Part shown: positions 13,043 through 31,661 of the stretch, in pieces
Numbering within the stretch: position 1 is the stretch's first letter
Layout of the letters: each line of letters begins with the position of its first letter
Source of the DNA: an uncultured Tenacibaculum sp.
Lineage (GTDB): Bacteria > Bacteroidota > Bacteroidia > Flavobacteriales > Flavobacteriaceae
Direction of reading: 5' to 3'
DNA length: 64,000 nt
Assembly: GCF_947499065.1 (NCBI RefSeq)
Contig: NZ_CANMMT010000008.1
Span: 62,001-126,000, forward strand
Position numbers and translations under genes: made by a program
Notes under the pieces: generated by a model
The model's input: only the letters and a program-made list of their open reading frames with translations
The model's database searches: none
What the model was told of the DNA's origin: nothing

Positions 13043-13139
13043 GTTCTTTTGATGGTTAGTATAAAAAGCAATACTAAAAAATAAATTTTCATTTTTCAGA
13101 TAATAGAATAGCTTACCTATGTGTTGGGAACGATTATTC

Positions 13140-13916
13140 TTATTTTTTATTCTTAATAGTTTTACTTTCTTTTAATAACTGTTTTTTTAATTGCATAATT
13201 GTTCCAGATTGAGCATTAACTTTTTTATTCAAAACATTTAAACTATCAATTAATTTTTCTTCCTTGGTAAGAAATTTTTGAATTTGAGTTTTATTTTCTA
13301 ATTGATTGGATTGATTTGTACTTTTCTCTATTAGAGTACCACAATAAATTGCAAACCCAATTATTCCAATAAAAGTTGTAATAAGTCCGACACTTTGAAC
13401 TAAAGGTAAATTGCCAATTAATTTTAACAATTTTGAAAGCGAAATATTAGATAGTTGAACAGTTTCGTTTTTCAATCTTTCTATTTCAGTATCTTGTTCT
13501 CTTAATTCATCTAAAAGGTTATTTTGGTCAATAATTAATTCATTCGCTTGAGTTATTATTCGTGATGTTTCCTTTGTTAATTTATTATATTCAGATTCGT
13601 AATACTTTTCACTTTTTTTGGACTTTAATTCTGCTATTTGAGAATATTCTTCAATTTGCTCAATAAAGGACTCCATTAGTTTTGTAGCTTGTATTTTTCC
13701 TTTTGCCATAGTAGATTCCTTAGCAGAAGTAACAGACGTTATAAATTTAATTTTTCCAATATCTAAACATCTGAAATCAACACCACCAAAAATTTCTCTA
13801 CAATCGTTTTCAACTTTAGATTTCCAAATTAAAGGCTCAAAACCATATTGAGAGATTTCCTGTTTCCTTTTTTCGAAAATTTCTAATGCTTTTTTACTTG
13901 GTATTTTTAATTCCAA
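13140..13916 (-). CDS. Coiled-coil membrane protein of unknown function
   Basis: The 258-residue protein has a soluble N-terminal part (1-90, containing PLIWKSKVENDCREIFGG). A heptad-rich coiled coil follows (about 90-160, SEKYYESEYNKLTKE, LREQDTEIERLKNE), then one membrane span (about 172-195, SVGLITTFIGIIGFAIYCG), then a second coiled coil to the lysine-rich end. I do not recognise a family. It lies 115 bp downstream of the TIR/membrane gene pair on the same strand and is the last gene of the array. Membership in that module is possible but unproven. Confidence 0.65.
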   Translation of the reverse strand: MELKIPSKKALEIFEKRKQEISQYGFEPLIWKSKVENDCREIFGGVDFRCLDIGKIKFITSVTSAKESTMAKGKIQATKLMESFIEQIEEYSQIAELKSKKSEKYYESEYNKLTKETSRIITQANELIIDQNNLLDELREQDTEIERLKNETVQLSNISLSKLLKLIGNLPLVQSVGLITTFIGIIGFAIYCGTLIEKSTNQSNQLENKTQIQKFLTKEEKLIDSLNVLNKKVNAQSGTIMQLKKQLLKESKTIKNKK

Positions 13917-14031
13917 AATCTATTATTTTAAATTTATATTAGGTTTCGTTTTCCAGTGTTATCGAACTACGTTGATTCTAAAAAGGCTTTATATCATCAT
14001 GATAAAAACTAAAAACACTCTCTTTGTCATT

Positions 14032-14433
14032 TCACTTTATTACGAACATTACAACGATTGTAATTAAAATTACTATTCCATAAAATGGTATTAACGTTTT
14101 AGACAGAATACCACTACCCCATGTATTTCTATCCTTATTAAAATCTGAGGCATCAAGTGAAAAATCTATATCAGTTTCTTTTGTTTGTGCAATTTTTGTA
14201 TACAAATCCCTGTATTGTCTTTCCTGAGAAATGTAAAATCCATCTAAAATCCAAAAAATTGGAGTTGGTATGTATGTCAGTAGGACATATAAGCTATTTG
14301 AATCTTTTGCTGCTAAAGCAAAAAGTGCAGAAACTAAAGTTATTGTCCATCCTTTAATTAAGAATGAATTACTGTTCATTCTAGTTATGATATTCTGGAC
14401 GAACTCGAGATGTTTTATTTTTTTTTGGTCCAT
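14032..14433 (-). CDS. Three-span membrane protein paired with a TIR gene
   Basis: This 133-residue protein opens with HLEFVQNIITRMNSNSFLIK, then hydrophobic segments at about 26-45 (GWTITLVSALFALAAK), 48-66 (LYVLLTYIPTPIFWILDG) and 110-132 (LIPFYGIVILITIVVMFVI), with a soluble acidic stretch between the last two. Its ATG begins 2 bp after the TIR gene's stop, so the two are translationally coupled. Small membrane proteins coupled to TIR or nucleotide-signalling proteins often serve as effectors or anchors in anti-phage systems; that role is inferred here. Confidence 0.75.
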   Translation of the reverse strand: MDQKKIKHLEFVQNIITRMNSNSFLIKGWTITLVSALFALAAKDSNSLYVLLTYIPTPIFWILDGFYISQERQYRDLYTKIAQTKETDIDFSLDASDFNKDRNTWGSGILSKTLIPFYGIVILITIVVMFVIK

Positions 14434-14435
14434 AC

Positions 14436-15221
14436 TTAAATAATAAATGCTTTGTTAATTGGTTTCATTTTATACAGATTGTCAAGTGCATCATGTGGTT
14501 TTTTTGATGTTAGTTTTTTCCATTTCTTAAGATCATTTAAGTTAAAATTAGCTAGATGTGATAGTTCAAGGTCATATTCTACTGTCAATAAGTTTGTGGC
14601 ACTTTCATTTGTCTGGATACCTTTGGAAAACATCCTTGTTTTTGGTTTTAATCGTTCAGGTGTCTTCTTTCTTATAATTTGGGTAGTCGCTATTTCAGAA
14701 AAAATCCACGGAGATTTGGTTCGGCTAATTACTTCATTAGAAGAAATTGAATTTGGGGTATTAAGAAAGAAGATACATTCAGAGTTGTCAATCATTCGGT
14801 TTAGCGCGGTTGAAAGCATTAAATTAACATGACTGTTTGAATAATTTCTTTTAGTGTAGTTATATGATTCATCTTCTGTATTTAGGCAATAATTATCATC
14901 GATGTTTCGTAATAAATTTGCTGAATAACCCCAAATACAAGAGTCAATAAATGTTTTTATTCCGAACTTATTGAAAAGTATACCCGCTAGGATAATGGCT
15001 TTTTTTTTGTCGATGTGGGAATGAGAAAGAAATATATGTGCATCAATTTTAGGAAACCAATTTTCAAGGATTTTTGTGCCACTAAGAGACTGGTTATTCA
15101 ACATGAATTCATCCAAAGTCTTTTTAGCTTTGGCTTTTGAATCATTATAAATGTTAAATCCATCTTTGTAAAATTTTTCTGGTAGGTCTTCTGGTATTTC
15201 AATATTGAATCCTCTATACAT
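14436..15221 (-). CDS. TIR-domain protein, candidate NAD-hydrolysing defence gene
   Basis: The protein is 261 aa, with a TIR fold from about residue 58: AHIFLSHSHIDKKKAIILA (strand A and loop), GIKTFIDS (strand B), then CIFFLNTPNS and SPWIFSEIA. The WxxxE within the last block is where catalytic TIRs carry their glutamate, so NADase activity is plausible. The first 55 residues are helical and charged with no known domain. The next gene, a three-span membrane protein, starts 2 bp after the stop. No cyclase or STING gene is adjacent. Defence function is inferred from the domain and setting. Confidence 0.8.
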   Translation of the reverse strand: MYRGFNIEIPEDLPEKFYKDGFNIYNDSKAKAKKTLDEFMLNNQSLSGTKILENWFPKIDAHIFLSHSHIDKKKAIILAGILFNKFGIKTFIDSCIWGYSANLLRNIDDNYCLNTEDESYNYTKRNYSNSHVNLMLSTALNRMIDNSECIFFLNTPNSISSNEVISRTKSPWIFSEIATTQIIRKKTPERLKPKTRMFSKGIQTNESATNLLTVEYDLELSHLANFNLNDLKKWKKLTSKKPHDALDNLYKMKPINKAFII

Positions 15222-15240
15222 TCTTCTTTGGTTTAATTGT

Positions 15241-15376
15241 AGTTAACATGTTCGTGTATGATTTGTTGCGGTTGTATTTAGCGAAAAGTCAGCAAGTAAA
15301 TGATACCTGTTAGAAGTTATCCGATGATTTTTTTAACAGGAAAATCAGTTAGCAATGAATTATATACATCGTTACC
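15241..15376 (-). repeat. attC-like inverted pair between the two TIR genes
   Basis: The left arm TTAACATG…GTATGATTTGTTGC is complementary, with one small insertion, to the right arm GCAATGAATTATATACATCG. The arms flank about 90 bp of unpaired sequence. The geometry (AAC … GTT ends, one arm with extra bases) resembles folded integron attC sites. The same right arm recurs at 24729-24754. Confidence 0.5.
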
Positions 15377-15416
15377 AAACTTTTTTTCTTGATTTCAAAA
15401 TTCTGCTAGTATTTCG

Positions 15417-16481
15417 TTATTTATAGATTTCAGTGATTTCTTTCCCAAGTTTGTATTTCCAATCTGAAGAACTTATATACATTATACCTGAATAATCCGA
15501 TGGAGTTTCAATTCCGTCTTCTAAAATCACAATAACTTTATCTCTACCTAATTTTCCAATAAAATACCCCGTTTCAAAAATTACATTTTGTCTTGCTCTC
15601 GGTTTTAACTTTTCACCGTCTTTATTTAGTTGACCTAAATCATCTTTACTCCAAATAGCAATTGCTAAATCTACAACTGCTTCGTCTTCAAATTTGCCTA
15701 AAATTTCTCTGCCTTTACTTGGTTGTTCATGTAGGATAACAGCTTCCTTTTTATAGTCAGTCTCAACAAATCTAGCAACCTCTAATTTCAGCTCATTATT
15801 ATGTCCATGAACTATAAATATTTTATTCTTCATAATCTTTTTTTCTTTTATAACTATGTCTTTAACTTTTCTATTCTTTATTTTTTTTATTAAAATCTTA
15901 AATAATGCATAAGTTTCAGAAAATTTTGAAGAAAGAGTAAACCCATTTCCACTGGTATCAAATTTGCAAAAATTTTGATAAGCTAATTCTGTTTCATCAA
16001 AATGTTCACTAAATAATTCTCTTGATTCAAGAAACCAATCGATGTACAGTGCTATATTTTGAGATGAGTTAACTTCACCAGTCATAAAATCTCCTTCATC
16101 ACTTATTTTTCTGTATTTTTCTGCCTTCTCGATTAATCCATTAATTGTTGAATTTATATCCATATTATTTTCTGAATCCATTCTTTTCGGCATTAAGTAT
16201 TTATCCAGATACTTTGGGTCGTGTTCTTTATATACAAACTCACTTGGGTTTTTACGAACTTTTGGAAATATTGTGTGAGCAAAATCACTCATTATATAAG
16301 TTAGGTTGCCGTTTGATTGGTCAATGGAATAAAGATCATATATTTCTTCTACGTCATAAAACTCGTAATTCAAATACTTTTTATTTGGATAGTATTCTTT
16401 TTGCCAATGAGATAAAGTCATTGATGGATTTGAATTATTTTTTTCACCGTCTTTATGTTTTACTCTCATATATTTTCTCAA
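15417..16481 (-). CDS. CAP12-like TIR nucleotide-binding domain protein with unknown N-terminal domain
   Basis: The C-terminal 140 residues (from about 218) match the predicted nucleotide-binding TIR family (PF10137, found in CBASS/Pycsar effectors): KIFIVHGHNNELKLEVARF, HEQPSKGREILGKFE, VDLAIAIWSKDD, then RARQNVIFETGYFIGKLGR with the probable catalytic Glu in the NVIFExG motif. The first ~215 residues are mixed helix/strand without a domain I recognise and may sense a ligand or phage product. No cyclase, STING or SAVED gene is adjacent, so it seems to stand alone. Defence use by NAD+ depletion is inferred from the family. Confidence 0.8.
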   Translation of the reverse strand: MRKYMRVKHKDGEKNNSNPSMTLSHWQKEYYPNKKYLNYEFYDVEEIYDLYSIDQSNGNLTYIMSDFAHTIFPKVRKNPSEFVYKEHDPKYLDKYLMPKRMDSENNMDINSTINGLIEKAEKYRKISDEGDFMTGEVNSSQNIALYIDWFLESRELFSEHFDETELAYQNFCKFDTSGNGFTLSSKFSETYALFKILIKKIKNRKVKDIVIKEKKIMKNKIFIVHGHNNELKLEVARFVETDYKKEAVILHEQPSKGREILGKFEDEAVVDLAIAIWSKDDLGQLNKDGEKLKPRARQNVIFETGYFIGKLGRDKVIVILEDGIETPSDYSGIMYISSSDWKYKLGKEITEIYK

Positions 16482-16500
16482 ATGTTTGGTAACTTCTTTG

Positions 16501-16561
16501 TGTAAGTTTTTTCAGTTGTTTACTTAATGTATCTAGTTATAAAGAACTTTAGGTGTTTTTA
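16501..16561 (-). repeat. Array intergenic element, copy 1 (diverged)
   Basis: CAGTTGTTTACTTAATG … CTTTAGGTGTTTTT matches the inner half of the shared element, with the ACTTAA / TTTAGGT pair. It lies just upstream of the CAP12-like TIR gene. Confidence 0.55.
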
Positions 16562-16579
16562 TACAACTCAAAAATATTC

Positions 16580-16630
16580 GTTAATTTTTTAAGCCTTCGA
16601 ATGTAGTTTAAAAAAAGAAGCTAGTTTTAC
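16580..16630. repeat. Dispersed 60-bp repeat, copy A (diverged)
   Basis: TTAATTTTTTAAGCCTTCGA followed by ATGTAGTTTAAAAAAAGAAG is a degenerate copy of the repeat that is better preserved at 22846, 24517 and 28011. Confidence 0.55.
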
Positions 16631-16703
16631 GGAAAACCCTACTTTAAGTAAGGTTTTTCCCTAATTCTTTATGTTTTTAAGTTAAAAATGTAGTTTTTTT
16701 CTT

Positions 16704-16851
16704 TCAGCGAAGTCCGCTGGTGGTTCTGCAGAGTTTCGAGAGTGTCAGCGAAGCTCGTTGGTGGTTTTGCAGGGTTTCGAAAGTGTCAGCGAAGCTCGCT
16801 GATGGTTCTGCAAGATTTCAAGAGTATCAGCGAAGCTCGCTGATGGTTTTG
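16704..16851. repeat. 41-bp palindromic tandem repeat (3.6 copies)
   Basis: Units begin at 16704, 16745, 16786 and 16827, all exactly 41 bp apart; the fourth is cut after 25 bp. Each starts with an inverted repeat (TCAGCGAAGCTCGCTGA in the best copy) followed by TGGTTCTGCAGGGTTTC-like sequence. The unit is GC-richer than its surroundings. The 511-bp gap 16482-16993 holds this, two dispersed repeats, an imperfect hairpin at 16631-16660, and a terminator; no gene. Confidence 0.85.
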
Positions 16852-16908
16852 TATTGTTTTTATGGGATGTGTGTTATTCTGTGGATAAAGTCAAACTAAA
16901 AAACAACC
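16838..16908. repeat. 70-bp duplication, copy 1
   Basis: TGATGGTTTTGTATTG … GATAAAGTCAAACTAAAAAA recurs at 17431-17502 with about three differences, flanking the 16994-17377 gene on both sides. Confidence 0.8.
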
Positions 16909-16926
16909 TTGGTTGAGGTTGTTTTT
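16898..16926 (-). terminator. Hairpin downstream of the BamE-like gene
   Basis: AAAAACAACC pairs with GGTTGTTTTT around TTGGTTGA. It lies about 70 bp after the minus-strand stop at 16994 and has A/T tracts on both sides. Confidence 0.6.
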
Positions 16927-16993
16927 GTTTTTTAATTATCATCAATGATTGGGTATAACTGTAAGTTGCTGTTATACATTGCTATGTGTGATT

Positions 16994-17377
16994 TTATCCT
17001 TGCCATGTTTTTATTTCAACAACTTTTTCTTTTTCAAATTTTAAAATTAAAGAACCTGTATTGATTCCATGCCCAGTTAACCCTAAATAGTAAATAAACT
17101 CTGTTTCTGATTCATTAGATGGATTACCAAGCAAGGTTTTTATTTCAATTTTTGATTTTCCTTGAAGATTGTTGTTTTCCGTTAAGTCATGTATCATATT
17201 CCATCTAACTCCAAAGGAAGACTCAGTTTCTTTCCAGTTTCTCCATTTAGTACTATTAAATTCAGTTCTGTTTAGATAGTCGTTAATATTAGGTTTTAGG
17301 ACAAAAAAAGTCACAGTTAGAATATAAATTATTCCGATTCCAAATACAATTTTAACTATATTTTTCAATATTTTCAT
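16994..17377 (-). CDS. Membrane-anchored SmpA/BamE-like small protein
   Basis: The protein is 127 aa. One hydrophobic segment (about 7-27, VKIVFGIGIIYILTVTFFVL) anchors it, and the rest is soluble. LTENNNLQGKSKIEIKTLLGNPS followed by IYYLG is the recurring pattern of BamE/SmpA-fold proteins (helix pair then strands). There is no lipobox, so it is not a classical BamE. Identical ~70-bp sequences flank the gene, as if the segment had been inserted or excised as a unit. The exact role is unknown. Confidence 0.65.
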   Translation of the reverse strand: MKILKNIVKIVFGIGIIYILTVTFFVLKPNINDYLNRTEFNSTKWRNWKETESSFGVRWNMIHDLTENNNLQGKSKIEIKTLLGNPSNESETEFIYYLGLTGHGINTGSLILKFEKEKVVEIKTWQG

Positions 17378-17419
17378 CTGAGTTTGTTTTCGATTGAAAT
17401 TTTTAATTCAACCAGTCTT

Positions 17420-17502
17420 TCAGCAGCGTTCACTGATGGTTTTGTATTGTTTTTATGGGGTGTGTGTTATTCTGTAGATAAAGTCAAACTAAAAAAACAA
17501 CC
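17420..17502. repeat. 70-bp duplication, copy 2, with a degenerate 41-bp unit
   Basis: It begins with a decayed tandem-repeat unit (TCAGCAGCGTTCACTGATGG) and continues into the same sequence as 16841-16908. Confidence 0.8.
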
Positions 17503-17570
17503 CTTTCGGATTTAGCACTAAATTTGACGGAATAGATGTATTGTTCTTTGGAGGTTCATGTTTGCCTGCA

Positions 17571-18593
17571 TTACGTATAATTATTGTTTGGGGCAGTTGT
17601 TTTATACTCAAATATTTTCCAAATTTCTGGAAAGTCCTTCTCCAAGTTTTCTTCTTTCCATTGCTTTCCAGTTATTTTTTGTTTTTTAACTCTTATAGGA
17701 GTCATTAATTCACTAGTTTTATTTTCATAAACGTTTTCGCCAAGCGAAAACATTTCTTCGAATTGTGGGTCTTCATCAAAGTGTTTTTTTAACTCTGAAA
17801 CGTTTAAGTTTTTAACATCCTCAAATGTTTCTGGTCCTTTCGAGATAACCCATGCCTTGAAGTAATTAAACGCATCACCTCCACAACCACGTCTTATTAT
17901 ATAAGCCAAAGCCCAAATTTCCCAACGATTTAATTCGTTGTACTTGCTTAAAAAAGTCTTTTGAAATCGTTTTATTTCGATTGGTTTGAACTCCTCCAAT
18001 TGATTTGATAATTTTTCTATAAAATCAAACTTATCTTCTGACTTTTCACGATTAAGTTTGATTAATTCCCAAAACAGATTTTCGTCAATCTTTCTTTTAT
18101 CGGTTGTCTTTTTTGGTTTTTGTTTTTCTAATTTATCAACTGTTTCTATCAACTTGTTAGTTTTCTCAATTTCTTGTTTAGCTCCAAGTTCGACAAGTCC
18201 TTGTTTGAATCTGTATAAGCCTTCTAAAGTTAGTTTTTGACATTCAAAAGTTTTTTTACTTCCATCCCAGTATTCGGTTATTCTGCCAAACTCTTTGTGC
18301 CAACCCCACAAATTTGAAAAACGATGTCTTAATATTCCTTTCCAAAACTTGATGAATTCCTTTTCCAGTTTATTTTCGATTAAATGCTTTTCCAGTGGTT
18401 CAAAAAATTCGTTCCATTGTCCAGAGTCCCAATTCTCATGTATGAATGCAATCAGTTCAGAATATCTTTTGTCTTTTATCCAAATGTCTCTTAAGTCCGC
18501 AAAAGTTTTCTCGTAATGTTGTTCAGGAAGATTGTTTTTTCTTCTCCATTCATTCAAGTCTCCAGATTCGTCTAAAAATTTTCCGTAACTCAA
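17571..18593 (-). CDS. DUF4240 domain protein
   Basis: Residues about 168-305 match DUF4240: ENLFWELIKLNREKSEDKFDF, the LNRWEIWALAYIIRRGCGGDAF core, and FKAWVISKGPETFEDV. The first 165 residues form helical, aromatic-rich sequence (HENWDSGQWNEFFEPL, GWHKEFGRITEYW) of unknown type. It is cytoplasmic, with no signal. DUF4240 proteins are typical accessory genes, sometimes proposed as immunity proteins; that is not demonstrated here. With 340 aa it is one of the longer genes of the array. Confidence 0.75.
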   Translation of the reverse strand: MSYGKFLDESGDLNEWRRKNNLPEQHYEKTFADLRDIWIKDKRYSELIAFIHENWDSGQWNEFFEPLEKHLIENKLEKEFIKFWKGILRHRFSNLWGWHKEFGRITEYWDGSKKTFECQKLTLEGLYRFKQGLVELGAKQEIEKTNKLIETVDKLEKQKPKKTTDKRKIDENLFWELIKLNREKSEDKFDFIEKLSNQLEEFKPIEIKRFQKTFLSKYNELNRWEIWALAYIIRRGCGGDAFNYFKAWVISKGPETFEDVKNLNVSELKKHFDEDPQFEEMFSLGENVYENKTSELMTPIRVKKQKITGKQWKEENLEKDFPEIWKIFEYKTTAPNNNYT

Positions 18594-18617
18594 TTTCGTT
18601 ATGTTTTAATGGTATCC

Positions 18618-18690
18618 AACTTATTTATATGTGTAATATTATTCCTGTTATTTACCTAATATGTCTGGCTAAACATAGGTTTAGGTGTGT
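18618..18690 (-). repeat. Array intergenic element, copy 2
   Basis: AACTTATTTATATGTGTAAT … TATTTACCTAATATGTC … GGTTTAGGTG is a well-preserved copy with an exact ACCTAA/TTAGGT pair. The right-hand arm TTGTACATTGTTTTATGTTGG at 18742-18762 precedes the next stop. Confidence 0.7.
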
Positions 18691-18753
18691 TGAGGAGTAA
18701 TTATAATCGTCAGTTATGAGGTTAAAGTTATGCTTTTTCACTTGTACATTGTT

Positions 18754-19251
18754 TTATGTTGGCTTTTCATTTAGGAGTTCTATTATTTTGGGTTGAATTA
18801 TCCATATTCCAATAGGAAAAAACCAAAACCCTAACATATACCAGCCATACCCTTCTTTTTTATTTCTCAATGTAGTAATGCATCTTGATAAAAAGTAAAT
18901 TGTGTGAATCATTGTATACATTAAAATCAGATGCAAAGGAATAATTAACCAGACTTTCCAACCATATTGAGTCATGTTTTTAATATTTATTAGATACCCA
19001 CCTATTGTTGAGAAAATAATTAATAGATATACAACCACAAAACCAATCTGAATTTTAAATCTTTTTAGATTCAATATGGATTTATCATTTAGTTTGTTGT
19101 ACAATTTCTCTCCAACTTTTAAAGTCCAGTAGGTGAATAGGCATAACCAGATTATCATTAATGTAGGTCCGATTATTGTTTCAGAAAAGATTGATAGAGC
19201 GATTATAGACAGAAATATAATCCATGGCTTTATAGTTAGTAGTTTATTCAT
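18754..19251 (-). CDS. Four-span membrane protein, unknown function
   Basis: The protein is 165 aa with hydrophobic segments at about 10-27, 28-46, 68-88, 98-120 and 135-155. It carries no conserved enzymatic motif that I can see. It begins 13 bp after the stop of the 143-residue soluble protein upstream, with no repeat element between, so the two likely travel and are expressed as one unit. A toxin/immunity or effector/regulator pair is conceivable but only inferred. Confidence 0.65.
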   Translation of the reverse strand: MNKLLTIKPWIIFLSIIALSIFSETIIGPTLMIIWLCLFTYWTLKVGEKLYNKLNDKSILNLKRFKIQIGFVVVYLLIIFSTIGGYLINIKNMTQYGWKVWLIIPLHLILMYTMIHTIYFLSRCITTLRNKKEGYGWYMLGFWFFPIGIWIIQPKIIELLNEKPT

Positions 19252-19264
19252 TTTTGTTTTTTTA

Positions 19265-19696
19265 TTATCGATAACAAATCAATTTTATTCTCTCTTCATT
19301 GGTATCAAGAGCAAACTGTCCTACACTTTCTATTAACTCTTGAATTCTTATTAAGTATTGTTCATTTGAAGGTTCATTTGTTACCGCTTTTAGAAAAATC
19401 AAATATTCAATTTCTTTAAAAGTCAACCAACCTCCAAGCGAATTGATTCCCTCAAATCCATTTTGCCAATAATCAAATCCGTACGTTGTGCCTTCTTCAA
19501 GATAAAGTTCGCCTATCTTTTCATTTTGTACTTTCTTAAATTCAATTTTTTCAATCCAATTCGAATTGTCAACGAGTCTTTCAATCAAACGAACCCATTT
19601 TGAGTTTGACATTAGATACTCAGAGAAGCGAACTATTGATTTTTCAATCTCCCGTTCAAATTGCTTATCGTATCTTTTTGCTTTTTTTGTTCTCAT
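19265..19696 (-). CDS. Hypothetical soluble protein
   Basis: The protein is 143 aa, charged and mostly helical, with no signal peptide or membrane span. Its middle has strands: YLEEGTTYGFDYW and GGWLTFKEIEYLIFLKA. I do not recognise the family. It is coupled (13-bp gap) to the membrane protein downstream and starts just after an array element. Its size and acidic/aromatic composition are like many small accessory proteins in such arrays. Confidence 0.6.
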   Translation of the reverse strand: MRTKKAKRYDKQFEREIEKSIVRFSEYLMSNSKWVRLIERLVDNSNWIEKIEFKKVQNEKIGELYLEEGTTYGFDYWQNGFEGINSLGGWLTFKEIEYLIFLKAVTNEPSNEQYLIRIQELIESVGQFALDTNEERIKLICYR

Positions 19697-19709
19697 TTTA
19701 ATTGTAGGT

Positions 19710-19785
19710 AGCTTGTTTGTATGTGGAATATTGTTCCTGTTATTTACCTAATATGTCTGGTTGAGCTGAGCTTTAGGTGTTTTTA
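19710..19785 (-). repeat. Array intergenic element, copy 3
   Basis: AGCTTGTTTGTATGTGGAAT, CCTGTTATTTACCTAATATG and GAGCTTTAGGTGTTTTT are all present. A right arm, GTATTGTATATCGTTA, follows at 19812-19827, next to the stop at 19831. Confidence 0.7.
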
Positions 19786-19830
19786 TAGAATTTAAAATAG
19801 CAATTAGAATGGTATTGTATATCGTTATTT

Positions 19831-20655: not shown

Positions 20656-20798
20656 TTTTTAATGTTGTACGTATCTATTAGGGGTTAAAAGTTATCGTTT
20701 TGCGTTTTAGAATTGATATTAGTAATTCTGATGGATTTAGAGATAGTTGAATCTGTTGCGATTGTATTTATACATTGGAAGCTTTTGTACTTTTATTT

Positions 20799-21206: not shown

Positions 21207-21234
21207 TGTAGTTTTTAGTTGGTGTATGAAAGCT

Positions 21235-22842: not shown

Positions 22843-22845
22843 AGT

Positions 22846-23885: not shown

Positions 23886-23900
23886 ATGGATTTCTTTTTT

Positions 23901-23980: not shown

Positions 23981-24000
23981 TTATTGATATAAGTAGTGTT

Positions 24001-24432: not shown

Positions 24433-24446
24433 TTGTCAAATATTGC

Positions 24447-24514
24447 ACAACTTGTTTGTATGCTGAGTATTGTTCTTTACCTAAATATGTCCAGCTATAT
24501 ATAGCTTTGGGGTA
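24447..24514 (-). repeat. Array intergenic element, copy 7
   Basis: ACAACTTGTTTGTATGCTGA and TTACCTAAATATGTCCAG with CTTTGGGG. Its partner arm TGAATTATAGACATTGTTAG lies at 24736-24755, beside the upstream stop; AACTTGTTTGTAT is complementary to it with gaps. Confidence 0.65.
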
Positions 24515-24516
24515 AT

Positions 24517-24580
24517 AAAATAGCAATTAAATTTTTTTAAGTATTCGAATATAGTTAAAAAAAAGAATTTGGCTGTAGAT
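24517..24580. repeat. Dispersed 60-bp repeat, copy C
   Basis: AAAATAGCAATTAAATTTTT, then AAGTATTCGAATATAGTT (palindromic TATTCGAATA) and AAGAATTTGGCTGTAGAT. The rest of the 319-bp gap 24433-24751 holds array element 7 and its right arm; no gene is seen. Confidence 0.75.
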
Positions 24581-24751
24581 ACGGATAGCCCAATAAAAAA
24601 GGTAAGCTTTGTTGAGGTTGTTTTTTTGGGTGTTTTGTTGATGTTTGAGCTATGATTTAGCTATGGAGTCATTCGAAGGATTATTCAGCCTAAATTCAGT
24701 TATAAATTAAACTTTTCTATAATTCTTTGCCACAATGAATTATAGACATTG

Positions 24752-25219
24752 TTAGTTGCTGTTTTTTTTTTCTAATTCTTTGTAATTCAGTGATGTTTTT
24801 ACATCAGTTATTAGTAGTGAAATGTTAAAGTTCAATTTATTCCGTTTTACTTTTGATTTTAGAAAACCAAGTTTTTCAACTATCGTTTCCGCAAAAAATA
24901 GTTGTTGGTCGGTTTCGGATAATTTAAAGAAATTATCTCTGTCAAGAATTATAGGTACTGCAATTGATTTTTCTTTTGGTTTATAATTTTCTATTTCTCT
25001 CAAGTTTTTTCTCAAATAGGGGGTTGGTTTTACGTAAACCTTAAATAAAATTATTTCCAATCCATGTCCATAATTATTCCATTTCAAATGAGCGAGTTTA
25101 TTTTTCAGTCCGTTGTTGCCCCATAAGTAATTCTTGACTAACTCTTTGTCATTATCGCCAATGTCAAAACTCGCAAAAAATCCAATTATATTTTCGTCAA
25201 TTTTTTTGTCATCTTTCAT
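24752..25219 (-). CDS. Hypothetical protein
   Basis: The protein is 155 aa, soluble and lysine-rich. Residues 25-70 carry NYLWGNNGLKNKLAHLKWNNYGHGLEIILFKVYVKP, then YLRKNLREIENY and AVPIILDRDNFFKLSE. No enzyme motif or membrane span is visible. It is preceded by array element 8 and followed by the best-conserved right arm. Function unknown. Confidence 0.6.
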   Translation of the reverse strand: MKDDKKIDENIIGFFASFDIGDNDKELVKNYLWGNNGLKNKLAHLKWNNYGHGLEIILFKVYVKPTPYLRKNLREIENYKPKEKSIAVPIILDRDNFFKLSETDQQLFFAETIVEKLGFLKSKVKRNKLNFNISLLITDVKTSLNYKELEKKNSN

Positions 25220-25230
25220 TATTATGAATT

Positions 25231-25290
25231 ACAATTTATGTGTGTATTTACTTAGTGTGTTTAGTTAAGCGGAGTTTTAGGGTGTTTTGT
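25231..25290 (-). repeat. Array intergenic element, copy 8 (diverged)
   Basis: ACAATTTATGTGTGTATTTA, CTTAGTGTGTTTAG and GAGTTTTAGGGTGTTTTG follow the consensus order. Confidence 0.55.
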
Positions 25291-25319
25291 GGTTATATAT
25301 TGTTATTACTAGTACTTTT

Positions 25320-25781
25320 TTATCCATCTATTAATATTTCAGTCGAAATCAAGTTGTTCATTGTTAGTGTAAAAGTGTGGTTTGGGTCATGCTCTCTTTC
25401 AAAAGCTATTTCCCAAATTTTTGGTTCCTTTTCACAACGAGATAAGTACAAGTAGACAGCTTTAAACTCCTTATTAAAATCAGTTATTTTAAAATCTTCT
25501 TTCCAATTCCGAAATTCGTTTTCAATCATTGGCTTTATTGAAGAGGTGATTTCATTATAATCGGATTCTATTTTTCGGAAAAAGTTCTTTTGGATTACAG
25601 TCGGTCCAGTTACGTATCCCTCAATTCCGATTTCTATTATTTCGTTAGTCGGTTTGAAATGTCTTCTACATTCAAAATAATTCTTTTCAGGATTTTTTTT
25701 GAATTCAGAGAATACCATTCTTCCAAAGAATTCGTCTTCTATTTTAATGGTTTTTCCAAATATAAAATCAAATATTCCCAT
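25320..25781 (-). CDS. Hypothetical protein (MGIFDFIFGK type)
   Basis: The protein is 153 aa. It opens MGIFDFIFGKTIKIEDEFFG, a pattern frequent in small accessory proteins resembling DUF2262. Strands ECRRHFKP, EIIEIGIEGYVTGP and KIWEIAFEREHDPNHTFTLTM surround an acidic helical middle. The DUF2262 assignment is uncertain. No signal or span is seen, so it is cytoplasmic. Confidence 0.6.
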   Translation of the reverse strand: MGIFDFIFGKTIKIEDEFFGRMVFSEFKKNPEKNYFECRRHFKPTNEIIEIGIEGYVTGPTVIQKNFFRKIESDYNEITSSIKPMIENEFRNWKEDFKITDFNKEFKAVYLYLSRCEKEPKIWEIAFEREHDPNHTFTLTMNNLISTEILIDG

Positions 25782-25842
25782 TTTGTTTTTCGTATTTGTA
25801 GTTATATGTTGATTTAAGACGTTTTTTAATTCATGTTTGGCA

Positions 25843-26406
25843 TTATATTATTAAACTCAATCCATAAAAGTAAATCACTCCAATAATTAAAATTCCGATT
25901 AAGTTTAATTTCAACGTTTTGCTTTTAAGGTCGGTCCAAATTGTTTTTAATTTTTCCTTTTCACAAACCACAACTTTCGTATTTGCTAAAAAATCTCCAA
26001 TTCTTCTTTCGGGATTAATTAGTCCAATAATAACTTCTAATGGCCAAGCAACAGCAATTGTCAAATTCCTTATGAAGCATTGTAATTCAGATGCAGGTTT
26101 CTCTGTTTTTCGATTGATAACTTGATATCCCAAAATTCGCTTTGCAGGACTTTTTGCGTTAAAAAAGTCTTTATTGATATAAATAAACATCATAAAAAAG
26201 AAAATTACAGAAGAAGTTCCATTGCTAATTTCTAATATTCCGTTTATGTCTAAAATAGTTAAAAGAATCATTGGTGGAACTATAACGATAGTCATAATTA
26301 TATGGTCTAATAGCATACTAGAAATCCGATGAAACCTTGGATTAATTCCAGCAAGCTTATTAATCTCTATATGTAAAATTCCTTTGTATTTAGTATCGTT
26401 CATCAA
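25843..26406 (-). CDS. RDD-family membrane protein (second copy)
   Basis: The protein is 187 aa. It shows RRIGDFLANTKVV near residue 135, SPAKRILGYQVINR at about 95-108, and spans at about 30-55, 62-80, 112-128 and 165-185. It is longer than the RDD protein at 23400 and similar only in motifs, so the two entered separately or diverged long ago. The listed start has two adjacent ATGs (26406 and 26403). Confidence 0.75.
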   Translation of the reverse strand: MMNDTKYKGILHIEINKLAGINPRFHRISSMLLDHIIMTIVIVPPMILLTILDINGILEISNGTSSVIFFFMMFIYINKDFFNAKSPAKRILGYQVINRKTEKPASELQCFIRNLTIAVAWPLEVIIGLINPERRIGDFLANTKVVVCEKEKLKTIWTDLKSKTLKLNLIGILIIGVIYFYGLSLII

Positions 26407-26414
26407 ATGTTTGT

Positions 26415-26500
26415 TAACTTGTTTATATGTGTAATATTGTTCCTGTTGTTACCTAATGTGTTTAGCTATGAGGAGGTTTTGGGTGTTTTGTGGTTATATA
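26415..26500 (-). repeat. Array intergenic element, copy 9
   Basis: AACTTGTTTATATGTGTAAT, TTGTTCCTGTTGTTACCTAA and GGTTTTGGGTGTTTTGTGG. It is among the best-preserved copies, and the last part repeats at 23970 and 25285. Confidence 0.7.
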
Positions 26501-26513
26501 TTGATGTAAAACG

Positions 26514-27041
26514 TTATTTTTCAAAATCCATTTTATTGTTAACCACAAATGCAATTAATAATTCGGTCAAATTATCTTGATATTTATAAAATTCCGAATC
26601 GCATTTATTCCAGCTTTTCTTAGCTTTTTGTTGAATCAATTCTAGTTCGTTTTGTCTTTCAGTTCTGTCTTTTGGTACAATTCCATTTTTAAATTCAGAG
26701 TTCGCTTTTTGTACAATTTTTGAGGTTTTTTTCGCTCCGATTTCTAATAAAGCATTTACTGTTTCTTGGCTAAAATCTCCGCTTGAATTAAAATAGTATT
26801 GGTTGAATCCGCCATTATTTATTTCTCGTTCTAAATTTTCAACATAAAGAAAACTCTTTTGTGAAGAATTCAGTTTCTCAATTTTTTCTCCGTATTCTGA
26901 TTTTTTATTTAGGTATGAGTCAATTTCCATCACAACCATGTCTCGTCTTTTCTTTTTCAAAACTTTGTCCAAGTCAAACTCAGTTTGCGAACTTGCATTG
27001 GCTGAAAATAATGATGCTATGAATATTATTAGTTTTTTCAA
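26514..27041 (-). CDS. DUF4375 domain protein with signal peptide
   Basis: A signal sequence (about 1-19, IIFIASLFSANASSQ) precedes a DUF4375 domain (about 50-170). Recognisable pieces are VENLEREINNGGFNQYYFNSSGD and TVNALLEIGAKKTSKIVQKA. DUF4375 is related to DNA-mimic protein DMP19-like folds and is usually cytoplasmic, so the exported form is notable. The downstream end has FYKYQDNLTELL, also typical. The role is unknown. Confidence 0.8.
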   Translation of the reverse strand: MKKLIIFIASLFSANASSQTEFDLDKVLKKKRRDMVVMEIDSYLNKKSEYGEKIEKLNSSQKSFLYVENLEREINNGGFNQYYFNSSGDFSQETVNALLEIGAKKTSKIVQKANSEFKNGIVPKDRTERQNELELIQQKAKKSWNKCDSEFYKYQDNLTELLIAFVVNNKMDFEK

Positions 27042-27061
27042 AGATTCGTTTTTAATATTTT

Positions 27062-27141
27062 ACAACTTGTTTATATGCGTAATATTGTTCCTGTTATTTA
27101 CCTAATATATCTGGCTATACAGAATTTCAGATGTTGTATAC
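27062..27141 (-). repeat. Array intergenic element, copy 10
   Basis: ACAACTTGTTTATATGCGTA, GTTCCTGTTATTTACCTAAT and a right arm CAGATGTTGTATACAGC at 27127-27143. Confidence 0.7.
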
Positions 27142-27145
27142 AGCT

Positions 27146-27901
27146 TTATTTTTTAGATAAAAAAACTTTTGATTTTATTATGAATTCATCTTTGGTTTCA
27201 CCTTCATGAGCACCATGAGATACATTTGGTAATATCCAAAGGTCAGATTTAGGTAGGTTTTTCTTAACACGAACTACCTCTTCTAAATCCATACCTTCAT
27301 CATCATCACCTATCATGATTAATGTCTCAGGTTTTATACTTTGCAATTCTTCATTAGTTATCTCAACAGTATAATTTTTAAACTGATTCATTATTTCTTT
27401 TATGTGTTCATCTCCTTCATGTGAAGTCTTAAGCCAAGGAAAATTGTTTCGATTTTCAAAAGTAAAAGCTTTTAAATATTCAGGAAAGTCATTGATTGTC
27501 CATGTTCCAACTGCACCTATAGTTATCATAGATTTTATTAAAGAAGGATTGATTAAAGCTAATTGATAAAGCACATCTCCACCAAAACTAAATCCAATAG
27601 CTTTGATTTTTTTTAATTGCAAATATTGAATTAAGGAATTAAGGTCTTGAGCAACAGATTTTATAGATAAATCCTCTTTAAACGGCTCTGATTTCCCATG
27701 TCCTGTTAAATCAATTAAATATACTTCGTATTCTTTTTCATAATTTTTCACATAAGGTTTCCATGATTTAGATGATTGTGTGTAACCATGTAATAGGAAT
27801 AAAGGCTTTCCTTTTCCGTAAATTTCGTAATAGAGGCTTTTTCCATTTATAGAAACGGATCCCTGTTTTTTAGGAGTTTGAGATAAAACGTTGGTTGACA
27901 T
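27146..27901 (-). CDS. Alpha/beta hydrolase, probably exported
   Basis: The fold is clear: LFLLHGYTQSSKSW (oxyanion region), IDLTGHGKSEPF, the nucleophile elbow GFSFGGD, the acid region MIGDDDEGM and the histidine in VSHGAHEG. The substrate is unknown. The listed ATG is inside a signal-like sequence: in-frame codons upstream read TTLITLLL before MSTNVLSQT but lack an ATG, and an out-of-frame ATG (MIKSLL) sits just upstream. Either a non-ATG start or a one-base frameshift in the signal peptide is likely. Confidence 0.85.
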   Translation of the reverse strand: MSTNVLSQTPKKQGSVSINGKSLYYEIYGKGKPLFLLHGYTQSSKSWKPYVKNYEKEYEVYLIDLTGHGKSEPFKEDLSIKSVAQDLNSLIQYLQLKKIKAIGFSFGGDVLYQLALINPSLIKSMITIGAVGTWTINDFPEYLKAFTFENRNNFPWLKTSHEGDEHIKEIMNQFKNYTVEITNEELQSIKPETLIMIGDDDEGMDLEEVVRVKKNLPKSDLWILPNVSHGAHEGETKDEFIIKSKVFLSKK

Positions 27902-28010
27902 TAAAAGAAGAGTTATTAGAGTAGTGATTTTATCATTTGTATTCAGTTATTGGTCTTTGGATATTGCTGCTAACGTATCTGTGTGTGATTTTGTTACGTG
28001 TTTCAATAAC

Positions 28011-28074
28011 TAAATTAGCAATTAAATTTTTTTAGTATTCGAATATAGCTAAAAAAAAGAATTTGGTTATAGAT
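28011..28074. repeat. Dispersed 60-bp repeat, copy D
   Basis: ATTAGCAATTAAATTTTTTT, AGTATTCGAATATAGCTAAA and AAGAATTTGGTTATAGATTT; nearly identical to copy C. The rest of the gap 27902-28139 carries GTTAACGG and GCTAAC motifs that may be decayed arms. Confidence 0.75.
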
Positions 28075-28139
28075 TTTGGTTGTTATGTTAACGGTATTGT
28101 ATTGGCGTAGTAGCGGATTTTCGATGCTAACTTTTCAAT

Positions 28140-29273
28140 TTATAACTGGCTTTTCCCGATTTTTTTATATGTTTTTTTCATTCCGAAAAGTAATCTTATA
28201 GCATTAAATGGGTAAATGAAAAGGCGATAGATAAGCACTATTGTTATAAACGAACTAACTAAAAGGATAAGAAGTTTGGAAAGGATATTTAAATCAAGCT
28301 TAACTATATAGTAAGCAAAAATGACAATAACAGTTTGGTGTAAAATATAAAATGGATAAATAGCTTCATTCATTTGTTTAAGGTATACACTTGGTTTGTT
28401 AAAGTAAACCTGTCCGTACCCCAGTATGGTCATAACAAAACTCCAACCTAATATACAACACAGCCCATACCAAATATCCCAGCGAACGGAAATGCTTAAA
28501 TAAGGTTCTACAAGATTATTCGGAATGAAATAGTAGCTATAGAATAAAAGTGAGGAGATTAAAAGAATGATTATGTGAAAATGTCTAAATTTTTTTAAGT
28601 TGTCCCAAAAGATTTGTGAAGACGCAAACAAAATACCGATAATAAAAAAATAGGTATAATAAAATGTTTCTGAAAAATTTGTTAGAGATGATGAACCTGT
28701 TGGATAGTACCTTTTAAGTATTATTGTTCCTAACATTAAAGGGAAGACTCCTAATAAAAGTCCAATTTTGTATGAGGATATTTTCTTAAGCCAATTCCTA
28801 AGAACCATAGATTTTTGAGACCTAAGAAAAAGTATTAGAGGTATTACAATTACAGAAATTACGTAAAGGTTTTCTATAAACCAGAGATGGTTTGTTTCAA
28901 AACGTCCTTGTGTGTAAATCTGCCAATAAGAATTAAATTCATTAATATATTGATAATACGTTTGTGGAGGTACGATAAAAATTACGCCAAAAAAAAGTGG
29001 AATTAGAAGTCTACCTGTACGCTCTTTAATGAATTGTTTCCAAGTTCGTTTTGAGAATGCAAGAACAGTTCCTGTACCTGATATCAAAAAAAGTAAGGGA
29101 AGTCTAAATTGCTCAAAATAAACCATAATATTATCCATTAGTTTGCTAGATTCAGCATTCATAATATGAAAGCCGTCTCCATTAAACGGCATTCCTATAT
29201 GGTGAAAATAAACGGCCAAAATAGCAATAACTCTTAACCAATCTAAATCGTATCTTCTGTTTGTAGTATCCAT
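28140..29273 (-). CDS. Acyltransferase family 3 membrane protein (OafA/YrhL-like)
   Basis: The 377-aa protein has about ten spans and the acyltransferase-3 signature: RRYDLDWLRVIAILAVYFHHIG at the N-terminus (with the conserved His), then FRLPLLFLISG and RLLIPLFFGV. Family members O-acylate carbohydrates or lipids at the cell envelope. The upstream gene encodes a LytTR regulator, a pairing often seen in Bacteroidota, and may control it. The substrate cannot be told. It has no SGNH domain. Confidence 0.88.
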   Translation of the reverse strand: MDTTNRRYDLDWLRVIAILAVYFHHIGMPFNGDGFHIMNAESSKLMDNIMVYFEQFRLPLLFLISGTGTVLAFSKRTWKQFIKERTGRLLIPLFFGVIFIVPPQTYYQYINEFNSYWQIYTQGRFETNHLWFIENLYVISVIVIPLILFLRSQKSMVLRNWLKKISSYKIGLLLGVFPLMLGTIILKRYYPTGSSSLTNFSETFYYTYFFIIGILFASSQIFWDNLKKFRHFHIIILLISSLLFYSYYFIPNNLVEPYLSISVRWDIWYGLCCILGWSFVMTILGYGQVYFNKPSVYLKQMNEAIYPFYILHQTVIVIFAYYIVKLDLNILSKLLILLVSSFITIVLIYRLFIYPFNAIRLLFGMKKTYKKIGKSQL

Positions 29274-29363
29274 TAATTTTGTTTTTGGGGCAATAATAAA
29301 AACAAAATCAGCTTGTTTTTTAGCTAAGTGATGAATGGCAATTGATAGTGATGAAATGCAAGC

Positions 29364-30239
29364 CTAATCATTTTTTAGGTTTATATAAGCTTGATTAAAC
29401 TCTTCAATTTTTGAACGAGAAACAGGGATTGTTCTATTGGAATAGTTTTTTAAATGAAGTATATATCCTTGGGCATTTCCAGAAACAGATTCAATAGTGT
29501 TAAGATTTACAACATATGAACGATGAGTTTTAAAAATGAATGGATAAGAATTTAATTGGTTCAAAAACTCTTTAAGAGTTAGACGTTTCATTTTTTTTTC
29601 ATAATCAGTTGAATGGTCATAATATATTTCTAGATAATTGCCATCCACTTTTGCATAAAGAAATGTTCGAATATTTAATTCAAAATTTTCTTCTTTTATT
29701 GGGGTAGTAATTTGAACGATTTCATCAGTAATATTGCTGTATTGTTGATTAATGGGAAGTTTTTTTAAATCATTCGAGCGTTTGTTAATTAAACGTTGTA
29801 GGTTTAACGGTAGAATAATTAGCAGCAATAAAATACCAACTAAAAAGGTATTTCTTATTTCTTCCCACAAATATCTAAAAGACCAGTTATCAGGATTTGT
29901 GTAAATAAAATCTCGAATTAAGAAACTTGCAATACCAATAAGAAATAAAACGATTGCTAAATGTAGAAACTCTTTGCCTAAAGTCCAATTTTCGGTGTTT
30001 TTTACCGACTTCTTGAGTAAGAAAAAATAGATGAAAGCAACTGGTATTGGTGTAACGGAATGCAATGTTATAATCCATAAGTAATCTATTTTATGTTCTT
30101 CAATATTTACAACAAAGGGGTCAAATAAATACGTAAAAAGAAAGCTAGCGATTGCGATAAAGCAAAGTAAGAATAATACTTTTTTTAATTCCTCATAGTA
30201 AAATGGATAAGGCTGTTTTATGTAGGTTTCAATATGCAT
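29364..30239 (-). CDS. LytTR-type DNA-binding regulator with membrane N-terminus
   Basis: Four hydrophobic spans (about 22-42, 50-70, 85-105, 130-150) are followed by a LytTR DNA-binding domain (about 195-285): FLYAKVDGNYLEIYY, RLTLKEFLNQL, FIFKTHRSYVVNLNTIESV and TIPVSRSKIEEF. It is a membrane-tethered transcription regulator without a receiver domain. It lies 90 bp upstream of the acyltransferase, its likely target. The signal it senses is unknown. Confidence 0.85.
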   Translation of the reverse strand: MHIETYIKQPYPFYYEELKKVLFLLCFIAIASFLFTYLFDPFVVNIEEHKIDYLWIITLHSVTPIPVAFIYFFLLKKSVKNTENWTLGKEFLHLAIVLFLIGIASFLIRDFIYTNPDNWSFRYLWEEIRNTFLVGILLLLIILPLNLQRLINKRSNDLKKLPINQQYSNITDEIVQITTPIKEENFELNIRTFLYAKVDGNYLEIYYDHSTDYEKKMKRLTLKEFLNQLNSYPFIFKTHRSYVVNLNTIESVSGNAQGYILHLKNYSNRTIPVSRSKIEEFNQAYINLKND

Positions 30240-30366
30240 TAATTTTATATGTTATTGTGATGTGGTCTTTATTTTTTTAATGACGTAAACTTGTTTAGAT
30301 ACTGTGCTAATTATAGTTTATTTATTCCATTTTATTCGCAACTATTTTATTATTTACAATAAAAAA

Positions 30367-30421
30367 GTCAAGCTGTTTGTTTTGTTTATGTACTTGGCTA
30401 AGTAAGAACTTTAGATGTTTT
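30367..30421 (-). repeat. Array intergenic element, copy 11 (diverged)
   Basis: AGCTGTTTGTTTTGTTTATG, CTTGGCTAAGTAAGAACTTT and AGATGTTTTT. It overlaps the 3' end of the 184-aa gene's stop region. Confidence 0.45.
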
Positions 30422-30975
30422 TAGTATCCAATATTAAAAATTCTAAATATTATAAATAATGCAATACCTATGTAAAAAACTACTAACCTCAATTTATCTG
30501 AAATGTTTAATCCTTTTAATATGCCTAATAAGCCAATGAACATGAACAATACTTTTATTCGATTTGAGTACTTTTTTCTATTAGAGTTATAGTCTTTAGT
30601 TTTTAGCAATGAATGGTTTTTTAATTTAATACTATATATATTAATATCATTATTTAAATCCAGTTTGTTTAGATTAGATTTACTAATTTTTATTTCTATA
30701 AATTGTCCTTCTTTTAAGTTTGAAATGTATTTACGATTCTTGCTGCTAATAGCACCATTTAAGATTTGAAATCTAGCATTGTATTTCTTAGCGTAAAATA
30801 TATAATCAGCTTTATTTCTTTGTCCAGTTATGTTTTGAATGCCTCTCTTAAGTTGAATTTTTAAATTCACTAATTCAGAATACTCTAGATCATATTTATT
30901 AAATCTAATTAGACTCCATATCAAGATTGCTATTCCAATTAATAAATAGATCCATTTATTTTTTGATTTTATCAT
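30421..30975 (-). CDS. Hypothetical membrane protein
   Basis: The protein is 184 aa with one N-terminal span (about 8-24) and two C-terminal spans (about 140-158, 162-180). The soluble region between contains ADYIFYAKKYNARFQILNGAI and LKEGQFIEIKISKSNL, a beta-rich pattern resembling DUF3592-type proteins. That resemblance is weak. It neighbours the DoxX-like gene, with a partial array element between (30990-31010). Confidence 0.55.
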   Translation of the reverse strand: MIKSKNKWIYLLIGIAILIWSLIRFNKYDLEYSELVNLKIQLKRGIQNITGQRNKADYIFYAKKYNARFQILNGAISSKNRKYISNLKEGQFIEIKISKSNLNKLDLNNDINIYSIKLKNHSLLKTKDYNSNRKKYSNRIKVLFMFIGLLGILKGLNISDKLRLVVFYIGIALFIIFRIFNIGY

Positions 30976-31023
30976 TAAATTAACATTATAACTTGTTTGT
31001 GTACAGAGTGTTAATTTTGTTGT

Positions 31024-31563
31024 TTACCATTTGATAGTGATAAAATATTCCAGAATTCTTAACACAAAAAATATTCCAAAAGCTATTAGGGTTTTTAGAA
31101 AGAATTTAGCTTTTTTTCGCTCTGTTTTTTCAGTTTTCAATAACATTTTTATGCTATTTATTAACTTTTCTTTATTTAACCATAAAATAATCAGAATCAT
31201 TAACTGATATAGAATTGCGGCTTTCAAAGCTCCTAAATGAACTCCAAAGTATATATCTTGAAAGATAACATTTACAAGTATGGTTGAAGTAAATAAACAA
31301 CCAATTATTCGAGTTTTTTTAATAAGAATTAAAATTCCACCAATAATTTCAAAAACTCCTAATGTGATAGCAAATGATTTTGAGTAACCATAAAAGGCCC
31401 ACATCAATTCCATTCCAGTCATTTCATTGACGGCTTTGTCAATTTCTGTAGCGCCGTCAAATTGGAATAGTTTTGCGCCACCATAAATAAACATTGCTAA
31501 AACTACAATCCAACTGATTGCATTTTCAAATATTTCAATTCTATCCTTTTTATTAAAATTCAT
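31024..31563 (-). CDS. DoxX-like membrane protein
   Basis: The protein is 179 aa with four or five spans. The DoxX/DoxD pattern is seen in FIYGGAKLFQFDG, WAFYGYSKSFAITLGVFEIIGGILILIKKTRIIG and HLGALKAAILYQLMILI. DoxX-like proteins are often linked to redox or sulfur chemistry but this subgroup is uncharacterised. It is the first (most upstream) gene of the array, directly downstream of the last intergenic element. Confidence 0.75.
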   Translation of the reverse strand: MNFNKKDRIEIFENAISWIVVLAMFIYGGAKLFQFDGATEIDKAVNEMTGMELMWAFYGYSKSFAITLGVFEIIGGILILIKKTRIIGCLFTSTILVNVIFQDIYFGVHLGALKAAILYQLMILIILWLNKEKLINSIKMLLKTEKTERKKAKFFLKTLIAFGIFFVLRILEYFITIKW

Positions 31564-31581
31564 TTTAGAGTTCAGTTTTCT

Positions 31582-31652
31582 TAGCTTGTTTGTAGAGCAT
31601 AATTTCTGCTATTTTCCTAATGCCTCAAAACAAGCAAAATTTTAGGTGTTTT
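31582..31652 (-). repeat. Array intergenic element, copy 12 (array right boundary)
   Basis: TTAGCTTGTTTGTAGAGCAT, TTTCCTAATGCCTC and AAATTTTAGGTGTTTTATA. It ends 10 bp before a terminator and the first gene outside the array. Confidence 0.6.
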
Positions 31653-31661
31653 ATATAGCTT

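Follow-up and report, generated by a model that had tools for sequence, protein, structure and literature searches.

A probable decaying cassette array of an integron-like system in a flavobacterial genome

The stretch of DNA analysed here (64,000 nucleotides, hereafter the window; G000:C8:62001-126000 in our numbering) belongs to the 4.0 Mb genome of an uncultured member of the Flavobacteriaceae, deposited as Tenacibaculum sp. and placed by our analysis in the genus Polaribacter, and carries, between the genes of a YceI protein and an aldehyde dehydrogenase, an array in which all 26 main open reading frames (ORFs; 13140-32509) lie on the minus strand, 17 of them being 90-190 codons long and most of the encoded proteins having no Pfam match. 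An earlier reading, made from the letters of the window alone (hereafter the sequence-only reading), had described these genes as co-oriented, mostly of 90-190 codons and separated by about twelve copies of a shared intergenic element, and had proposed that they form either a cluster of attC sites lacking integron-integrases (CALIN) or an analogous, so far undescribed cassette system of Flavobacteriaceae. The description agrees with our counts, and both halves of the proposal were supported, the array itself being CALIN-like and without an integrase and the system being complete in most congeners (Polaribacter). Judging from comparisons with these relatives, the array is very probably a CALIN in decay, left by an integron-like system that is common in marine Flavobacteriaceae and that in intact relatives consists of a tyrosine recombinase of about 387 residues, an attI-like site and co-oriented cassettes with attC-like sites.

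A profile search of the window found 11 copies of the shared element (E<=0.01), every one of which lies within the array and on the minus strand, and a repeat search recovered the same repeat families. The first arm of the element, CATATAAACAAGTT (with at most two mismatches), occurs seven times on the coding strand of the array, never on the opposite strand and never in the 44 kb outside the array. As to the second arm, AACAATGTATAA, which was said to be complementary to the first and to lie beside the upstream stop, it stands, at the same tolerance, no more than 60 nucleotides past 9 of the 26 stop codons, whereas dinucleotide-shuffled sequences gave 0.77 such cases and never more than 4. 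This part of the claim stood, whereas most arms in the window turned out to be degenerate and, for this reason, most gaps are without a complete complementary pair. The view of the shared element as a site had to be narrowed in a similar way: for the most part it corresponds to the 3' half of a site, while for most of its copies identity with a complete attC was ruled out, because the complementary 5' arm is absent or decayed. Most full sites of the window have decayed; a single well-preserved one remains, at 15244-15374, along with several decayed arms. A scan of the window alone for AAC...GTT hairpins performed little better than on shuffled sequences, so that a model built from relatives was used instead, and Rfam gave no family match inside the array.

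In the relatives, an attC-like site of about 127 bp is repeated in the gaps downstream of the recombinase gene. Its 5' arm is like YAACACCGTATATAATTTATTGC and its 3' arm like GCAACAAACCATATACAAACACGTTR, and the hairpin is laid out as an R box (YAAC/GTTR plus about six variable self-complementary bases), spacers of 3 and 6 nucleotides, an L box and a long variable loop. In 45 diverse copies, which had been preselected for complementary arms (alignment A3), the arms pair in 96.7% of the cells, with a covariation of 0.459 against 0.136 after shuffling and at most 0.106 after sliding; the bottom strand folds more stably in 40 of the 45, and at two conserved positions the top strand shows an A.C mismatch (40/45 and 42/45 copies), which becomes T.G only on the bottom strand, as expected for an integron attC. 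A further set of 70 copies, chosen by sequence and spacing alone with complementarity unused, contains 161 A.C against 21 G.T; in the fixed register its bottom strands pair in 81% of the cells, against 33-53% when slid, and at least 13 of 16 pairs are formed in 42 copies, against 22 when the arms are dealt to other copies. The R boxes are rarely canonical (GTTRRRY in 4 of 102, RYYYAAC in 8 of 102), in line with the earlier statement that the element is not a canonical attC. The covariance model of the site, named R1, was built from relatives, with the intact site of the window outside its training set; it detects 25 sites in the window's genome, this one (Table 1) among them, with more arrays elsewhere in that genome, and sites in 68 of the 71 congeners. 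The check by covariance modelling, proposed together with the sequence-only reading, has therefore returned both significant structure and many copies elsewhere.

The borders of the cassette unit can be traced in one relative (G009, locus L038), where a 550-bp unit without a long ORF is present five times, the copies being 94-100% identical over their shared stretches. All five start with G^TTGTATTT and end with ACTAG^TTG, their flanks are unrelated, and one of them occupies the attI-like site, immediately after the recombinase gene. Read in this way, the sequences point to a cassette unit running from G^TT to G^TT, with precise insertions, including the one at attI. Longer duplications from G040 and from the genome of the window (C17) were aligned as well, but the G^TT border is not sharply defined by the ends of their BLAST alignments. 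Within one array of the latter genome (L058, G000:C17) a gene-bearing stretch of 966 bp is duplicated at 93% identity (941-1905 and 5519-6480). For 97 cassettes (18 loci) we set the bases with which a cassette begins after G^TT against the reverse complement of those preceding AAC at its own end; at least 7/8 agreed in 39% of the cassettes, against 0.7% of shuffled pairs and 0/139 when both sides of a single integrated site were compared. That a cassette start is complementary to the cassette's own end fits the notion of the cassette as the unit, whose site is completed in the excised circle; in most cassettes of the window this complementarity has apparently been lost, as judged by eye.

The search for a tyrosine recombinase near further copies, also proposed beforehand, led to the enzyme that adjoins the arrays of relatives. 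It occurs in about 40 of the 71 congeners, and R1 places 192 sites near 80 named recombinases from Polaribacter, Tenacibaculum, Winogradskyella, Lutibacter, Algibacter and other Flavobacteriaceae, every one of them on the recombinase's strand. The sites lie downstream of the gene, with the exception of L082, where they are upstream of a truncated copy, and they follow the recombinase in 42 of the 44 loci having at least 1.5 kb of downstream sequence, a tally for which loci with sites were listed by hand from the R1 results. Past the recombinase stop codon, about 25-45 nucleotides behind the gene, an attI-like motif TATATTTG-n5-ATATAACCAGTTR was found in about 58 of 75 loci, by a pattern that also admits a few off-register matches. 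Contigs end no more than 700 bp behind the recombinase gene in 27 of the 80 cases (L065-L144), which is probably an effect of assemblies breaking at repeated cassettes. All that is left of the recombinase in the window's genome is a broken C-terminal fragment with in-frame stops (C3:200030-200158, 67% identity over 37 residues), which may account for the erosion of the sites in this genome and is the reason why we regard the array of the window as a probable decaying CALIN of a new integron variant.

The recombinase differs from IntI in several respects. Canonical IntI above the TIGR02249 cut-off (265 bits) was found neither in the window's genome nor in the 119 relatives searched, 71 of them Polaribacter, and the recombinase itself reaches 207-216 bits, in two stretches, below this cut-off; its Pfam matches are PF00589 and PF13495. 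The KDR and HxLRH motifs are typically separated by 58 residues, a distance that amounts to 100 in IntI from this phylum and to 65-68 in XerC/D of the genome itself (values of 25-36 residues, obtained for a few flavobacterial rows, arose because a later second match of the motif was counted). About 42 residues, corresponding to the I2/additional domain, are missing, and the predicted model of the recombinase has no extra helix between the two motifs. The residues R, K, H, R, H and Y, which on the basis of the motifs we take to be the catalytic ones, do not vary in the alignments. In a tree with long branches, the flavobacterial recombinases and IntI form separate clades (support 100/99 and 100/100), the mutual placement of which is unsure; the nearest solved folds are archaeal XerA and, after it, VchIntIA. 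The recombinase also has an extra N-terminal domain of about 90 residues with no significant family match: its sequence is weakly similar to HARP (PF07443 in 4 of 27, best E 0.015; 4o66 with E 0.08-0.13), and its fold, in Foldseek, places XPB at rank 1 and 4o66 at rank 3, with E 0.11-0.27. As no match is significant alone, we treat the HARP/XPB resemblance as a lead. Recombinases of other Bacteroidota or second recombinases of Polaribacter (L042, L045, L051, L056) are also without the additional domain, and some of them have a similar N-terminal stretch. Across the phylum, canonical IntI exceeds the cut-off in 105 of 396 genomes, with none listed in the window's family; by lineage, canonical IntI and the flavobacterial system seem to be mutually exclusive. 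In the literature, IntI is defined by the additional domain (PMC9668308), which has also served as an integrase filter (PMC2426708), and the I2 helix is described as indispensable for the capture of cassettes by IntI, as conferring single-strand recombination and as known from no other protein (PMC7790495). By its proposed working the system would be an integron; by the tested definition of IntI its recombinase is not a member.

With integrons and CALINs (e.g. that of VchIntIA) the system has in common co-oriented single-gene cassettes, each with a hairpin site, the G^TT boundary, the bottom-strand bias of the hairpin, an attI beside the integrase, a tyrosine recombinase and the existence of integrase-free arrays. 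Unlike in integrons, the R boxes mostly depart from GTTRRRY/RYYYAAC, the sites are AT-rich with a long loop, the integrase is co-oriented with the cassettes and has attI at its 3' end, and the recombinase differs from IntI in lacking the I2 stretch, in having the extra N-terminal domain and in belonging to a separate clade. The orientation is that of the inverted ('reverse') integrons, such as that of Treponema denticola, where the integrase gene likewise has the direction of the cassettes and is followed by attI at its 3' end; the integrases of these, however, are described as IntI with the additional domain. Archaeal XerA (PDB 4a8e, 5hxy; NCBIfam NF040815) is the nearest relative both in solved fold and in sequence and has no I2 insert either. 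In contrast to Xer proteins, which resolve chromosome dimers at dif on double-stranded DNA, the flavobacterial recombinase has its extra N-terminal domain and an adjoining cassette array. The weak likeness of this domain, in sequence and fold, is to the HARP domain of SMARCAL1 (PF07443, PDB 4o66) and to the N-terminal half of XPB (2fz4). As for carriage by phages, a BLAST search of one attC against phages gave no match.

The structure and strand asymmetry of the site, the boundaries of the unit, the precise insertions, including that at attI, and the synteny of recombinase, attI and array are the grounds from which we infer the mobility of the cassettes and the assignment of the enzyme to them. 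In intact relatives the recombinase gene is followed by the attI-like site and then by co-oriented cassettes, each ending in an attC-like site of about 127 bp. By analogy with IntI, the recombinase should cut the folded bottom strand at G^TT, the cassettes should be excised as circles, and the circles could be inserted at attI or at other attC sites; the same analogy suggests that the enzyme catalyses the cassette reaction on the single-stranded bottom strand with an IntI-like cutting chemistry. The window's genome would have lost the recombinase, its sites being left to erode. A wider proposal, which we advance tentatively and at somewhat less than an even chance, is that of a second independent route to integron function, in which an Xer-like tyrosine recombinase without I2 would capture and shuffle cassettes via hairpins of the single-stranded bottom strand, the N-terminal HARP/XPB-like domain would take on the recognition of folded DNA, and the window would hold a fossil array in a Polaribacter that lost the enzyme.

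Other explanations should be considered as well. Sites that fold and are bounded like attC, the occurrence of IntI in 105 of 396 genomes of the phylum, and the recombination by IntI1 of one predicted site of a Polaribacter phage, reported in a 2023 paper (PMC9892861), could all be reconciled with a canonical integron, in which an ordinary IntI with its additional domain acts in trans or was recently lost and the recombinase of about 387 residues is a bystander. In that phage, Polaribacter phage P12002L, R1 has no match. We find this explanation very improbable, considering that no IntI passes the cut-off in the 119 relatives (71 Polaribacter) and none is listed in the family, that of the 44 testable loci 42 have attI and the array behind the recombinase, without any change of strand, that the decay of the recombinase coincides with eroded sites in the window's genome, and that the R boxes are mostly not GTTRRRY. 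The proximity of the recombinase to archaeal XerA by sequence and fold, and its lack of I2, would suggest site-specific recombination of double-stranded DNA by an Xer-like enzyme, the cassette ends being double-stranded core sites and the hairpin incidental or a terminator. A double-stranded core site would, however, keep its sequence and not its pairing, whereas covariation of the stem extends over many pairs deep within the site, the conserved A.C/T.G positions favour specifically the bottom strand, and the R box past YAAC is free to vary between cassettes and is self-complementary within a cassette, which makes this mechanism very improbable. Finally, the array might be an ordinary genomic island or an operon-like accessory cluster, the repeats being terminators or dispersed repeats, similar to miniature inverted-repeat transposable elements (MITE) or repetitive extragenic palindromic (REP) sequences, with no role in mobility; the repeats described below (the 68-nt D2 and the 41-nt tandem units with CAGCGAAGCTCGCTGA), as well as T-run hairpins, do resemble terminators or dispersed repeats, and the full site is absent from many gaps. 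This is scarcely credible in view of the score of the intact site (E 7.6e-10), the G^TT unit boundaries in relatives, the complementarity between own start and own end, and the strand-consistent synteny with the recombinase.

Several points weigh against our preferred interpretation of the array as the decaying one of an integron-like system. In most sites of the window the complementary 5' arm is missing, the 12-copy element, which is a 3' half whose interior is conserved, has a role that is explained in part, the recombinase loci L092 and L126 have no downstream site, and the comparisons of gain and loss are between species and between copies in one genome. Besides, if the requirement for I2 (PMC7790495) is universal, another enzyme would be needed.

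The interval between the YceI and aldehyde dehydrogenase genes measures 19.65 kb in the window, against 1.3, 2.6 and 2.7 kb in G017, G022 and G027, where no array lies in the orthologous interval. As it is array-free in these relatives, which is the outcome of the synteny comparison that had been proposed, the array of the window was either acquired by this lineage or lost from the others. A precise empty site was looked for and rejected: the flanks are the same in the relatives, but 1.3-2.7 kb of other sequence separates them, so that the exact joint of the array is unreadable. The features of the window are collected in Table 1.

Table 1. Array, flanking genes, sites, element copies and defence-like genes in the window (positions of the window)
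Feature	Position	Strand	Remarks
Left flank, YceI	12388-13005	+	opposite strand to array
Cassette array, 26 co-oriented ORFs	13140..32509	-	single strand, mostly unknown proteins
PDC-M50A candidate defence protein, second gene in ThsB-like cassette	14032..14433	-	PADLOC 185 bits
Cassette gene, ThsB-like (Thoeris) TIR protein, directly behind intact site	14436..15221	-	PADLOC ThsB 271 bits
Intact attC-like site, YAAC...GTTR hairpin, 131 bp	15244..15374	-	R1 60.4 bits, E 7.6e-10; C8:77244-77374 in whole-genome scan
Cassette gene, TIR effector (CAP12/Pycsar-type, PADLOC PDC-S35)	15417..16481	-	Pfam PF10137 112 bits; PADLOC 199 bits
Shared-element copy (3' half of site)	16482..16563	-	profile 43 bits
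Shared-element copy, terminal CATATAAATAAGTTG	18609..18697	-	profile 70 bits
Shared-element copy, terminal CATACAAACAAGCT	19700..19787	-	profile 66 bits
Shared-element copy, partial	21243..21279	-	profile 20 bits
Shared-element copy, terminal CATATAAATAAATTG	22765..22853	-	profile 66 bits
Shared-element copy, degenerate	23908..23974	-	profile 19 bits
Shared-element copy, terminal CATACAAACAAGTTG	24440..24524	-	profile 50 bits
5' arm of decayed attC-like site, CTAACAATGTCTATAATTCATTG	24709..24754	-	R1 21.4 bits, E 0.05; AACAATGTCTATAATT past stop of 24752-25219
Shared-element copy, degenerate	25224..25288	-	profile 26 bits
Shared-element copy, terminal CATATAAACAAGTTA	26407..26488	-	profile 52 bits
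Shared-element copy, terminal CATATAAACAAGTTG	27055..27144	-	profile 65 bits
Shared-element copy near array right end	31581..31659	-	profile 49 bits
Right flank, aldehyde dehydrogenase	32651-34276	-	

Two further families of repeats are present in the array. Tandem repeats of 41 nucleotides with CAGCGAAGCTCGCTGA palindromes occupy 16704-16903, within a 512-bp gap (16481-16994), and a 77-nt copy of the same sequence lies at 17420-17496 (91%). A dispersed 68-nt repeat, D2 (TATTCGAATATAGYTAAAAAAAAG on the plus strand side), sits in several gaps of the array, adjoining the shared element (16565-16632, 22841-22908, 24513-24580 and 28007-28074), and related sequence is found in the arrays of C12, C17 and C4. 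As to the gene content, the only intact site of the window is flanked by three adjacent anti-phage-like genes (14032-16481), encoding the TIR effector, the ThsB-like TIR protein and PDC-M50A.

We found no description of this Flavobacteriaceae system in a literature search from which preprints and most subscription journals were outside the scope, so that a prior description is possible. Earlier work had found hardly any integrons in Bacteroidetes (PMC9024848): with IntegronFinder 2.0, a single complete one was reported from Bacteroidetes proper (in Salinibacter), and a genome paper on Tenacibaculum that used IntegronFinder reported no integron (PMC10013915). Integron surveys demand the additional domain of IntI (PMC2426708) or score integrases and attC sites by models that were trained on canonical systems. 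If our interpretation is true, a large gene-capture platform has been overlooked, one that numbers dozens of sites in each genome of many Polaribacter and has representatives in many other genera of Flavobacteriaceae; around the one intact site of the window its cassettes resemble anti-phage genes. The I2 helix is held to have enabled the shift of integron integrases from double- to single-stranded recombination, for which no intermediates were known (PMC7790495). A natural recombinase without I2, standing beside bottom-strand hairpin sites, makes the role of this helix testable; provided that it acts on the folded bottom strand as IntI does, I2 is dispensable for integron function.

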